Source of the DNA: Methylopila capsulata
Lineage (GTDB): Bacteria > Pseudomonadota > Alphaproteobacteria > Rhizobiales > Methylopilaceae
NCBI RefSeq assembly: GCF_016907975.1
Contig: NZ_JAFBCY010000001.1
Coordinates: forward strand, 806,001 to 870,000
DNA: 64,000 nucleotides
Reading direction: 5' to 3'
Part shown: positions 33,102-60,404 of the stretch, in pieces
Numbering within the stretch: position 1 is the stretch's first letter
Layout of the letters: each line of letters opens with the position of its first letter
Program-made: the position numbers and the translations under genes
Notes under the pieces: generated by a model
Told to the model about the DNA's origin: nothing
Databases searched by the model: none
The model's input: the letters and a program-made list of their open reading frames with translations, nothing else

Positions 33102-33188
33102 CGTCATGGTCCGGCTTGAGCGGACCATCCATCTCGGGCGTCGCGCTTAGCGTCCGAGATGGGTCCTCCGGTCAAGCCGGAGGACGAC
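33102..33188. repeat. 87-bp triple-hairpin repeat, copy A (between murB and ddlB)
   Basis: Inverse copy of the element also found at 58524-58610, 59008-59094 and 59161-59247. Its outer hairpins are ATGGTCCGG-CTTGA-type and TCCTCCGG-TCAAG-type with CCGG cores; the central one pairs CCATCTCGG with CCGAGATGG. It lies in the 208-base murB-ddlB gap and is the most diverged copy in its centre. Confidence 0.85.
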
Positions 33189-33237
33189 GACGCGCTTCAG
33201 GATCGCAGGTCAGCGTTCGACGGACATGGCGGCCGTC

Positions 33238-47677: not shown

Positions 47678-48141
47678 AGCCCCCCACATCGCCGCGGAAG
47701 GCGGCGCTCCGACCGCCCTCGCCTGAAACCTCAGGCGAAAGCCGCACGTCTCCAGCCGCGCGCGCAGCGCGGAACGCTGCGACGCCGATCGCCGGGGATC
47801 CCCCGAGAGAACCTCCAGCCTGTCGCTTCGACGGGATGATTTGGGATATCATGGGGCCGTATGGGCGTCAACGAAACGGGGTTCGCGGCCCCGCTCGACG
47901 CGGCCCAGGACGCATCACCTGACAAGGGCCGCGTCGCGCCGGTACGCGACGCCGTCAGTAGAACTTCCTTAGGGTTAAGAACCCGTTGCGCACCGTCGTT
48001 CGTCGGCCGCCGTTGGTCGTTCTGATCAGACGAAAATGTAAGATGACGACGCGCGGACGCGGACATCGCCGGCGGGCGCGGGGCTCCGCGGGCGCGAATC
48101 GCCCAGCGGAGCCGCTCGAGCGCTCGCTGCGGGAGGCGGAA
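47678..48141 (-). promoter_or_regulatory. dcw leader and promoter region
   Basis: The 464 bases between rnpB and mraZ hold no gene. They contain an 8-bp hairpin at 47719-47738 (TCGCCTGA and TCAGGCGA around AACC) about 42 bases before mraZ, the candidate MraZ operator at 47842-47866, a small inverted repeat GGGTT-AAG-AACCC at 47972-47984, and an AT-richer stretch around 47955-48050. The transcription start of the dcw run should lie between these. Confidence 0.5.
47842..47866 (+). promoter_or_regulatory. Candidate MraZ operator (three TGGGN repeats)
   Basis: TGGGA, TGGGG and TGGGC occur in a row, each separated by exactly five bases, giving 10-bp periodicity. This matches the MraZ operator described for E. 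coli. They read on the plus strand, opposite to mraZ, and lie 165-190 bases before the mraZ start. Confidence 0.6.
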
Positions 48142-48556
<415 letters not shown>

Positions 48557-58176: not shown

Positions 58177-58380
58177 ATGCCGAGCGGCACCGTCAAGTTC
58201 TTCAACACCCAGAAGGGTTATGGCTTCATCCAGCCGGCCGACGGCTCGAAGGATGTCTTCGTTCACATCTCCGACGTCGAGCGTTCGGGCCTCCACACCC
58301 TCGTCGAGGGCCAGAAGGTCGCGTTCGAAGTCGTCATGGAGCGTGGCAAGACCAAGGCCGCGAACCTCCGCGCCGAGTGA
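58177..58380 (+). CDS. cspA: Cold-shock domain protein
   Basis: A 67-residue CSD protein that binds single-stranded RNA/DNA and acts as an RNA chaperone. RNP1 is KGYGFI (residues 13-18) and RNP2 VFVH (27-30). The start at 58177 follows a strong AGGGAGG site; the longer frame starting at 58054 is not homologous. A good terminator follows. Whether it is cold-induced or constitutive cannot be told. Confidence 0.96.
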
Positions 58381-58450: not shown

Positions 58451-58523
58451 GGGGGGCGTTGCCGCAGACATCCGCAGATCACCCTCGCCGCCGTCCTCTG
58501 CCCTGCTCGGGCCACCCTCCGCC

Positions 58524-58610
58524 GTCGTCCTCCGGTTCGACCGGAGGACCCAAGTTCGACGTCGAACGCCACGCCCGAAATGGATGGTCCAGTCAAGCCG
58601 GACCATGACG
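58524..58610. repeat. 87-bp triple-hairpin repeat, copy B
   Basis: Begins GTCGTCCTCCGG and ends GCCGGACCATGACG. It is the copy with the most changes in the first loop (TTCGA) and centre (CAAGTTCGACGTCGAAC, itself a good inverted repeat). Homology to copies C and D extends about 20 bases further left (CTCGGGCCACC) and into GGCGCG on the right. Confidence 0.9.
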
Positions 58611-58686
58611 GCGCGAGGGCGATAGGCGCTTGGATTCGAACGCGAGCGACGCTTCACTGACGCGCATCGCAACCGGACGCGCCTCG

Positions 58687-58980
58687 GTGAAATCGTTCTT
58701 CGTCTACATCCTGGCGAGCCAGCCGCGGGGCACGCTGTACGTCGGCGTGACGAGCGATCTCCCGAAACGGGTCTGGCGGCATCGGGAGAGCCTGGTCCGA
58801 GGGTTCACCAAAACCTACGGGGTCCACCGGCTCGTCTGGTTCGAGCCGCATGAGTCCGCGGAGAGCGCAATCCAACGCGAGAAACGCCTGAAGACCTGGC
58901 TTCGGAGCTGGAAGATCGAACTGATCGAGCAAAGCAACCCGCACTGGGACGACCTGTTCGACCGCATCGCCACCATGTGA
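58687..58980 (+). CDS. Small GIY-YIG nuclease-family protein
   Basis: A 97-residue single-domain GIY-YIG protein (UPF0213/YhbQ-like). The variant core reads VYILASQ...GTLYVGVT, followed by the arginine-containing helix DLPKRVWRHRES and EKRLKTWLRSWKIELIE. GTG at 58687 matches the family start (KSFFVYIL); a TTG 57 bases upstream would add a non-conserved leader. The gene is bracketed by copy B of the 87-bp repeat on the left and copies C and D immediately on the right. A role of the nuclease in repeat dynamics is speculative. Confidence 0.85.
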   Translation: MKSFFVYILASQPRGTLYVGVTSDLPKRVWRHRESLVRGFTKTYGVHRLVWFEPHESAESAIQREKRLKTWLRSWKIELIEQSNPHWDDLFDRIATM

Positions 58981-59007
58981 CTTACCGCCCCTCGGGCCAC
59001 CCTCCCC

Positions 59008-59094
59008 GTCGTCCTCCGGCTTGACCGGAGGACCCATCTCCGACGTCGAGCGCCACGTCCGACATGGATGGCCCGGTCAAGCCGGACCATGACG
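59008..59094. repeat. 87-bp triple-hairpin repeat, copy C
   Basis: Same orientation as copies B and D. Left hairpin TCCTCCGG-CTTGA-CCGGAGGA, right hairpin ATGGCCCGG-TCAAG-CCGGACCAT with one mismatch, separated by a central part with GACGTCGAGCGCCACGTCC. It starts 27 bases after the GIY-YIG stop codon. Confidence 0.9.
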
Positions 59095-59160
59095 GCGCGG
59101 GTGGGGTGGATGGCGTGACGTCGCCCTTGGTGAGTTCGCGCCCCTTGGGCCACCGTCTTC

Positions 59161-59247
59161 GTCGTCCTCCGGCTCGACCGGAGGACCCATCTCCGACGTC
59201 GAGCGCCACGCCGGACATGGATGGTCCGGTCAAGCCGGACCATGACG
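59161..59247. repeat. 87-bp triple-hairpin repeat, copy D
   Basis: Direct repeat of copy C with a 66-base spacer. The right hairpin ATGGTCCGG-TCAAG-CCGGACCAT is perfect. Its end lies 46 bases from the queC stop codon. Confidence 0.9.
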
Positions 59248-59292
59248 GCGCGGTGGGGGACGGCGCTGGCGCGGGGCGGACGGCGTAGCGCG

Positions 59293-60051
59293 CTATGCGC
59301 CGGACCGAAGCGACCCGGCCCGCTCGCGCCAGCGCGCAAACCCGCGCGCGCGCAGGTCGCAGGCGGGGCAGGCGCCGCAGCCGTAGCCCCAGGCATGGCG
59401 GGCGCCGCGCTCGCCGAGGTAGCAGGTGTGGCTGTCCTCGACGATCAGCGCGACCAGAGCGGCCCCGCCCAGCCCCTCCGCCAGCGCCCAGGTGTCGGCC
59501 TTGTCGAGCCACATCAGCGGCGTCTCCAGCACGAAGCGGCGCTCCATGCCGAGGTTGAGCGCGACCTGCAGCGCCTTGATCGTGTCGTCGCGGCAGTCGG
59601 GGTAGCCGGAGAAGTCGGTCTCGCACATGCCGCCGACGATGCGGCGCAGCCCCCGCCGCCAGGCGAGCGCGGCGGCGAAGGTGAGGAAGACGAGGTTTCG
59701 GCCCGGCACGAAGGTGTTGGGCAGGCCGCCCGCCTCCGCCTCGATCGCGACGTCGCGGGTCAGCGCGGTGTCGGACAGCTCGCCGAGCACCGGCAGCGCG
59801 AGCGTGTGGTCCTCGCCCAGCCGCGCCGCCCATTCCGGCTTCAGCCGCGCGAGCCCGGCGCGCAGCGCCGCGCGCTGGTCGAGCTCGACCCGATGGCGCT
59901 GGCCGTAGTCGAAGCCGAGCGTCTCGACGCGCGCGAAACGGTCCAGAGCCCAGGCGAGGCAGGTGGTCGAATCCTGCCCGCCGGAGAACAGCACGAGCGC
60001 TCCGTCGCCCTCGCCCGCCGCCCCGCCCTCCGCCTCGGCGGCCGCCGTCAT
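59293..60051 (-). CDS. queC: 7-cyano-7-deazaguanine synthase
   Basis: A 252-residue ATP-dependent enzyme converting 7-carboxy-7-deazaguanine to preQ0 for queuosine. The PP-loop SGGQDS is at residues 23-28; zinc-binding cysteines are in DSHTCYLG and [13 protein letters not shown] near the C-terminus. The start at 60051 overlaps the queD stop as ATGA; the longer frame is a shadow of queD. Last gene of queE-queD-queC. Confidence 0.96.
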
Positions 60052-60404
60052 GCCCCGTCGTGCTCCGCCCAGCAGAACGGCGTCTCGAACACCTTCACCT
60101 GCGCGAGCTGCGGCAGGTCCGGCTTCACCTTGTCCCAGATCCACAGCGCGATCAGCTCGGCCGTCGGATTCTCAAGACCCTCGATCTCGTTCAGCGTGTG
60201 ATGATCGAGCCGCTTCAGCACCGGCCCGAACGCCGCCTCGACGTCGAAGAAGTCGACGACGAAGCCGGTCACGGGATCGATCGGCCCTTCGAGCGCCAGC
60301 TCCACCCGGTAGGAGTGGCCGTGCATGCGGTGGCAGCGGTGGGTCGGCGGCACATTGGGCAGCCGGTGGGCGGCCTCGAAGGTGAAGGCCTGAACGATCC
60401 TCAT
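60048..60404 (-). CDS. queD: 6-carboxy-5,6,7,8-tetrahydropterin synthase
   Basis: A 118-residue QueD that converts 7,8-dihydroneopterin triphosphate to 6-carboxytetrahydropterin. Zinc histidines His13, His28 and His30 and the catalytic Cys24 are visible (CHRMHGH); the later DHHTLNE and GLENPTAE motifs match. It lies 10 bases after queE and overlaps queC by four. Confidence 0.96.

Follow-up and report, generated by a model that had tools for sequence, protein, structure and literature searches.

Hydrolysis is the mode by which GIY-YIG enzymes cut DNA, and they lack the covalent intermediate through which HUH transposases can rejoin strands. Free-standing homing endonucleases built on the GIY-YIG catalytic domain may spread selfishly into the site that they recognise. 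The Ssn family, reportedly described by Chenal et al. in Nature Communications in 2025, is said to consist of GIY-YIG nucleases that act site-specifically on single-stranded DNA; its meningococcal member reportedly acts on a sequence repeated in hundreds of copies, and thousands of homologues are said to have sequences of their own. The RAYT of Escherichia coli cleaves the single-stranded form of its GTAG REP (PMC8266576). Another class of repeat, the CGTC-tagged REPs, was surveyed by Di Nocera et al. (2013, PMC3733652); in the portions of that survey used here they have a CGTC or TGTC head, a stem of 8–9 bp, a loop of 4–5 nt and a CCA tail, occur as opposed dimers, mostly in alphaproteobacteria, and include Neisseria CGTC-1, which is equated with dRS3. 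The same portions report no transposase associated with these REPs and conclude that they are without a dedicated enzyme (PMC3733652). Among the matches listed by a literature search, none dealt with GIY-YIG genes together with REPs.

The window analysed here, a stretch of 64,000 nucleotides from Methylopila capsulata, contains a small GIY-YIG gene bracketed by such repeats. The order at the locus is csp, one repeat copy, the GIY-YIG gene, two repeat copies and queC, and a fourth copy lies elsewhere in the window:

58177..58380, plus strand: csp, cold-shock protein gene (PF00313, E 2.4e-24), left neighbour in the empty-site test
58523..58610, plus strand: CGTC-REP dimer A, with opposed REPs at 58523–58553 (plus) and 58580–58610 (minus)
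58687..58980, plus strand: GIY-YIG nuclease gene, 97 aa, GTG start (PF01541, translation and ORF list)
59007..59094, plus strand: CGTC-REP dimer B, 26 bp past the stop codon, its second REP with an imperfect stem
59160..59247, plus strand: CGTC-REP dimer C, offset by 153 bp from dimer B and with flanks in common with it
59293..60144, minus strand: queC ORF in its longest form, domain from residue 49 (PF06508, E 4.2e-67, and ORF list), right neighbour in the empty-site test
33102..33189, minus strand: fourth dimer of the same family, not near any GIY-YIG gene

The three local copies in the same orientation and the 97-residue reading frame are found where the original prediction had placed them. 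The repeat, thought to be 87 bp long, is an 88-bp unit that starts one base earlier, from the C of CGTC, runs to GACG, and consists of two opposed palindromes around a variable spacer. The first typically reads CGTC-GTCCTCCGG-CTTGA-CCGGAGGAC-CCA and the opposed one CGTC-ATGGTCCGG-CTTGA-CCGGACCAT-CCA. The ends of the unit are sharp: in an alignment of 22 rows from the window's own genome (21 distinct places), column identity is 1.0 at all bases of the CGTC and GACG ends and about 0.4–0.6 outside the unit, where single edge columns reach at most 0.73. Means over ten bases are at least 0.79 inside the unit and about 0.4–0.5 outside, and the step falls at the tags. The homology of some 20 bases beyond the core that had also been described exists among the three local copies, which form a 130-nt family, and in part in a few others (L251, L256 and L266 have the GGCCACC-like stretch left of the unit), but not in most copies. 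Folded as single-stranded DNA, all four window copies are more stable than shuffled sequences (z -3.6 to -7.0), and for the three local ones (z -3.6 to -4.5) none of 200 shuffles was as good. The expected triple hairpin is obtained for three of the four, including the local copies at 58523 and 59160, whereas the minimum-energy fold of the middle copy, at 59007, is one long hairpin.

Dimers occupy at least 42 distinct places in the window's own genome, a lower bound with 40 of 116 candidates scored, and a covariance model of the REP gives 112 matches there (119 candidates scored). Of the 42 listed copies 39 lie away from the window gene, and one of these 39 is 3 kb from a second family gene; repeats distant from GIY-YIG genes had been named beforehand as evidence against a link, and they do occur to this extent, as is expected for a dispersed REP. 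At the fourth dimer, the corresponding intergenic region holds a dimer in genome G011 and other sequence, with no dimer, in G007, G005 and G004; no clean empty site was found for it among the latter three. The window palindromes fit the definition of CGTC-tagged REPs given in the parts of PMC3733652 used here. Among the six REPs that flank the gene, three have exactly a 9-bp stem and a 5-nt loop, two have stem and loop lengths of 10/3 and 7/9, and one has an imperfect stem; all six match the REP model at 28.8 bits or more. The high copy number and the opposed-dimer arrangement agree as well, with at least 42 dimers in the genome. In one respect they depart from the published description, as far as it was available: the stem there usually opens with AT (PMC3733652), while one of the two window REPs opens with GT.

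The window protein matches PF01541 (E 1e-13; 51.8 bits against a cut-off of 22.6), its sole Pfam family, and belongs to the GIY-YIG superfamily; an alternative upstream start, TTG at 58630, is possible. Residues Y7, G15, G20, T22, R28, H32, E65, N84, P85 and W87, among others, are invariant in 30 aligned relatives, and the invariant residues of the GIY-YIG family are presumably the catalytic ones. The gene is under purifying selection, with dN/dS of 0.07–0.21 in eight of eight family gene pairs, which are not independent and mostly have dS near 1. A sequence search of the PDB gave the UPF0213 protein 1zg2 (E 1.6e-4), and the WD40-repeat chains in the same search were taken as spurious. A phage gene was rejected as a candidate, the protein having neither a PHROG nor a phage record match; a defence gene of a kind known to PADLOC was likewise rejected. 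Rfam offered no RNA at the locus, only RNase P reaching the gathering score within the window (bacterial class A, 48141–48552, minus strand).

The association of gene and repeat extends to many lineages. A scan of genome contigs confirmed 591 loci, and the best 80 of these, spread over many phyla by title and including many metagenome bins, are the named loci. In these best 80 of 591, CGTC hairpins with a perfect stem of at least 7 have a density of 3.29 per kb up to 250 bp from the gene and of about 0.1 per kb at distances over 500 bp; one lies no more than 300 bp from the gene in 63 loci, and on both sides in 33. Scanned with no tag presumed (perfect stems of at least 8), the same 80 of 591 gave 198 hairpins near the gene against 333 far from it, or 5.09 versus 0.66 per kb. 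Of the 256 possible flanking 4-mers CGTC came top, with 109 near (58 loci) and 34 far; next came TGTC and the complements of the tails CCAG, CCAT and CCAC. The scan without a presumed tag thereby recovers CGTC and the CCA tail.

Other reading frames at these loci (again from the best 80 of 591) do not share the pattern. A CGTC or TGTC REP lies within 150 bp of 69 of the 73 family genes and of 19 of the 212 other ORFs, and on both sides within that distance in 36 of 73 and 1 of 212 (Fisher p 4e-43 and 4e-24, respectively). The comparison started from 78 genes, five of which have short flanks and were left out; control ORFs had to reach 150 aa, to overlap no longer ORF, to keep clear of the locus end and to lie at least 1 kb from the gene. 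L092 and L095 probably duplicate L013 and L015 and were omitted here and from the pairing and arrangement counts. Because 69 of 73 family genes have a nearby REP against 19 of 212 ORFs, the link is not due to chance, and the co-occurrence that the original prediction asked about is real. It also gives strong support to the REP/RAYT-like layout with a GIY-YIG nuclease suggested there, through proximity in many lineages and through the co-divergence described below.

Matches to the covariance model (R1), which are near the genes partly by construction since it was trained on 45 REPs from these loci, occur within about 250 bp in 78 of the 80 named loci (best 80 of 591; all but L043 and L069) and in 45 of the 50 loci of relatives (all but L014, L020, L023, L140 and L143), the weakest of them with E 0.4. 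Hairpin density, the tag-free scan and the ORF comparison are independent of this model. Orthologues lying without repeats, the other outcome that was to count against the link, are a minority (seven loci, 2 of 80 and 5 of 50), and in most of these seven there are hairpins close by whose tags are different or imperfect. At L143, L043, L140 and L020 the flanking hairpins are headed, for example, CCTT, TGTT, CGTT or GACT, and some have a CCA tail; these may possibly be tag switches. No REP model match was found near L003, a 666-aa frame that we take to be UvrC. In Sinorhizobium meliloti pSymB the family gene (L281, 1942–2316) has gltA and lpxB as its neighbours, and near each of its ends there is a REP with the head pointing outward. 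The family gene on a plasmid of Planktothrix agardhii (L280, 2001–2285) lies between the type IIL restriction enzyme MmeI and the DISARM gene drmA, and this locus has no CGTC REP match. Repeats beside relatives in many bacteria point to an enzyme and its target rather than to coincidence.

The arrangement of the REPs has a preferred polarity. A strict REP lies within 250 bp of the gene in 107 of 129 distinct loci, on both sides in 65, and in these 65 the heads point outward in 40, inward in 16 and in parallel in 8 and 1 for the two directions. In the outward class a REP ends at a median of 21.5 bp before the start codon and the next begins 8.5 bp after the stop; start codons, here and in the survey of REPs at the glnA-puuB-like site described below, are estimates. 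The window locus falls in the inward class because its gene is flanked by whole dimers.

Protein and repeat co-diverge. The two REPs beside one gene are identical over 8 nt in 39 of 65 cases, with a mean of 0.63 mismatches against 2.69 when shuffled. Over 107 loci, protein distance correlates with REP-arm distance (Mantel r 0.26, p 2e-4), and within the genus the correlation is r 0.38 (p 4e-4, 20 loci). Still within the genus, REP-arm distance is 0.56 for paralogues in the same genome (10 pairs) and 0.13 (34 pairs) where close proteins come from different genomes: the type of REP tracks that of the nuclease rather than the genome. The second family gene of the window's own genome is a case in point: its product shares 63% identity with that of the window gene, and its REPs are of a different type. 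Some of this sharing of REPs reflects inheritance of genes at a single site. Type I, however, lies between csp and queC in G000 and beside a gene that we call ligase-like in G012, G002 and G009; members of types IV (72% identical) and V (59%) have no flanks in common, type V at 59% identity being a weak case for relocation.

We consider it likely that the small GIY-YIG nuclease recognises its cognate CGTC REP as single-stranded DNA and makes its cut at the CGTC head or next to it, and that the two are inherited together and have sometimes moved together. The enzyme would bind the REP folded on single-stranded DNA and would cut near the CGTC head; a preference for single strands is carried over from the reported work on Ssn, the Neisseria relative, and that work together with the enzyme family suggests that the hairpin is nicked. 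An enzyme that defines where the unit ends agrees with its sharp borders, the outward heads and the cognate pairing. Cutting of REPs on incoming or lagging-strand DNA while single-stranded may shape recombination there, and recombination at REPs would in turn favour the persistence of the repeats and of their gene.

The nuclease may also spread the repeats, and the evidence on this points both ways. It could be the missing spreading enzyme of the CGTC REPs, cuts at the CGTC heads releasing or copying a unit and host recombination and ligation completing the process, so that REP-gene-REP would be a selfish autonomous element and the REP dimer its non-autonomous derivative; we regard this as possible, if somewhat improbable. 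It agrees with a unit that ends exactly at CGTC and GACG, with the 40 of 129 distinct loci in which the gene lies between outward-headed REPs, a polarity shared with the dimers, and with related genes of types I, IV and V, which sit in different places beside similar REPs. Two sites occur with and without the gene. Between csp and queC, G000 has dimer-gene-dimer-dimer, G011 three dimers and a decayed fourth without the gene, and G007 neither dimers nor gene; queC was found in 12 of 13 genomes and adjoins csp only in these three; the remaining 10 of 13 gave no csp next to queC. At a glnA-puuB-like site, G000, G002, G005 and G007 have REP-gene-REP, with atypical REPs that have long loops and no CCA tail, and a bare junction, which can also be read in favour of spreading, lies between the matched parts of the neighbouring genes in G011 (14 bp) and G004 (23 bp); the neighbourhood differs in the other 7 of 13 genomes. 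The ends are precise and two genomes have a bare junction, but no target duplication was established. From G000 to G007, moreover, the family gene at this site is 94.4% identical in nucleotides and its neighbour 96.0%. Since it diverges with its neighbour, the gene has descended vertically there, and G011 and G004 may have lost it; loss in these two is at least as likely as gain. Against spreading by the nuclease there is also the chemistry, hydrolysis with no covalent intermediate able to rejoin strands, and the lack of recent multiplication of the gene, the copies within the window's own genome being 63% identical and ten same-genome pairs in the genus averaging a protein distance of 0.44.

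Copy number bears on the same question. REP model matches with E up to 1 were counted in 61 genomes, with at most 119 candidates scored per genome, and a genome was taken as gene-positive if it had a match above 60 bits, G014 and G010 being counted as negative. The median is 61 matches in 36 genomes with the gene and 10 in 25 without (p 4e-4), 36 (25 genomes) against 9 (23) outside the genus (p 0.005), and 44 (23) against 6 (20) with one genome per family (p 6e-4), the last being the sole correction for kinship. In random 20-kb stretches from 41 genomes, too sparse a sample, REP density did not differ significantly (p 0.087). The supposition that copy number follows presence of the gene thus holds for the medians and has exceptions both ways. 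Nine of the 25 gene-negative genomes have at least 28 matches, and such REP-rich genomes tell against the nuclease as mobiliser. Seven have no clear family member (G039, 93 matches; G004, 92; G048, 56; G033, 50; G013, 29, with two weaker GIY-YIG matches; G038, 29; G031, 28). G014 (99 matches) has a split family gene (L282/L285) with one weak REP match near it, and G010 (80) has only a weak partial family match (L284), near which no REP match was found. Conversely, 8 of the 36 gene-positive genomes have fewer than 20 matches (G017 and G046, 0; G027, 1; G055, 2; G015, 3; G053, 4; G018, 17; G025, 19).

An explanation of similar standing, credible although we lean against it, is that the nuclease serves the host only: a domesticated enzyme that restricts or shapes the uptake of single-stranded DNA in transformation, with the REPs kept as marks, much as is reported for Neisseria Ssn. 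The purifying selection on the gene and the small number of family genes per genome agree with this, and so does the setting of the gonococcal homologue. The latter is identical to the window protein at 54 of 90 residues (60%) and lies amid an array of CGTC REPs, with 11 model matches in 6.3 kb and the nearest REP 5 bp past the protein match. It comes from chromosome-sized records filed as plasmids: NZ_CP119142.1 (L279) and NZ_CP119140.1, Neisseria gonorrhoeae records of about 2.17 Mb in PLSDB. A purely host function is harder to reconcile with family members in lineages for which natural competence is not known, and with the close relative G004, in which no family gene was found.

It is unlikely that the gene is a passenger, a homing-type selfish gene settled in safe and abundant intergenic REPs that something else has spread. 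Dispersed REPs without the gene would be explained, as would the csp-queC gap of G011, filled by three dimers and a decayed fourth with no gene, and L036 weakly matches phage homing-endonuclease families; a passenger would not, however, be expected to have a REP type that tracks its protein type, nor paralogues in one genome beside different types, and the window protein itself matched nothing in PHROG or in phage records. Coincidence, three locally duplicated repeats that happen to flank a common small gene, can draw on the 153 bp between copies B and C and on their common flanks, but is ruled out for practical purposes by the persistence of the association in other genomes and by the Fisher values given above.

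If recognition and cutting of the cognate REP by the nuclease are combined with its spread, the GIY-YIG family would be to the CGTC REP superfamily, in bacteria at large, what RAYT is to GTAG REPs, its dedicated enzyme: a hydrolytic nuclease that maintains and spreads a tagged hairpin, each enzyme with its own REP type, REP-gene-REP being autonomous and dimers non-autonomous. We offer this tentatively and think it rather less probable than its negation. Should it be true, Neisseria dRS3 and the alphaproteobacterial REPs would form one enzyme-repeat system. The many types in the family provide natural candidates for sequence-specific single-strand nucleases. Some of these findings may already be covered by the reported work on Ssn. 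A GIY-YIG family that co-diverges with its own CGTC REP type makes the question of a dedicated enzyme, as posed in the sections of PMC3733652 used here, directly testable.

Compared with known systems, the window locus most resembles Ssn. Judged by its sequence, the window gene probably belongs to this kind, with cleavage predicted: it is close to the Neisseria homologue, which we take to correspond to meningococcal Ssn, and its cognate repeat is present in many genomic copies, both features of the family as it is reported. The GIY-YIG family and the many-copy repeat are thus common to the two systems; the general link to CGTC REPs, the polarity of REP-gene-REP, the sharply bounded 88-bp unit and the empty sites were observed in the present analysis. 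Free-standing GIY-YIG homing endonucleases share with the window protein the catalytic domain and possibly selfish spread, but have a single homing site, in contrast to the many-copy repeat and absent PHROG match here. Membership among the RAYTs was rejected, there being no HUH tyrosine transposase, GIY-YIG being the only Pfam family, and the leading tags being CGTC and TGTC, with GTAG absent from the 15 listed. The REPtrons formed by REPs and RAYT (TnpA_REP), in the sections of PMC8266576 drawn on, nevertheless pair a tagged hairpin repeat with an enzyme gene of its own, just as the window locus does, the GTAG tag and transposase there being replaced here by a CGTC tag and a GIY-YIG nuclease. 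For the CGTC-tagged REPs themselves, the published survey, in the portions used, reports no transposase (PMC3733652), whereas the enzyme associated with them here is a family of GIY-YIG genes.
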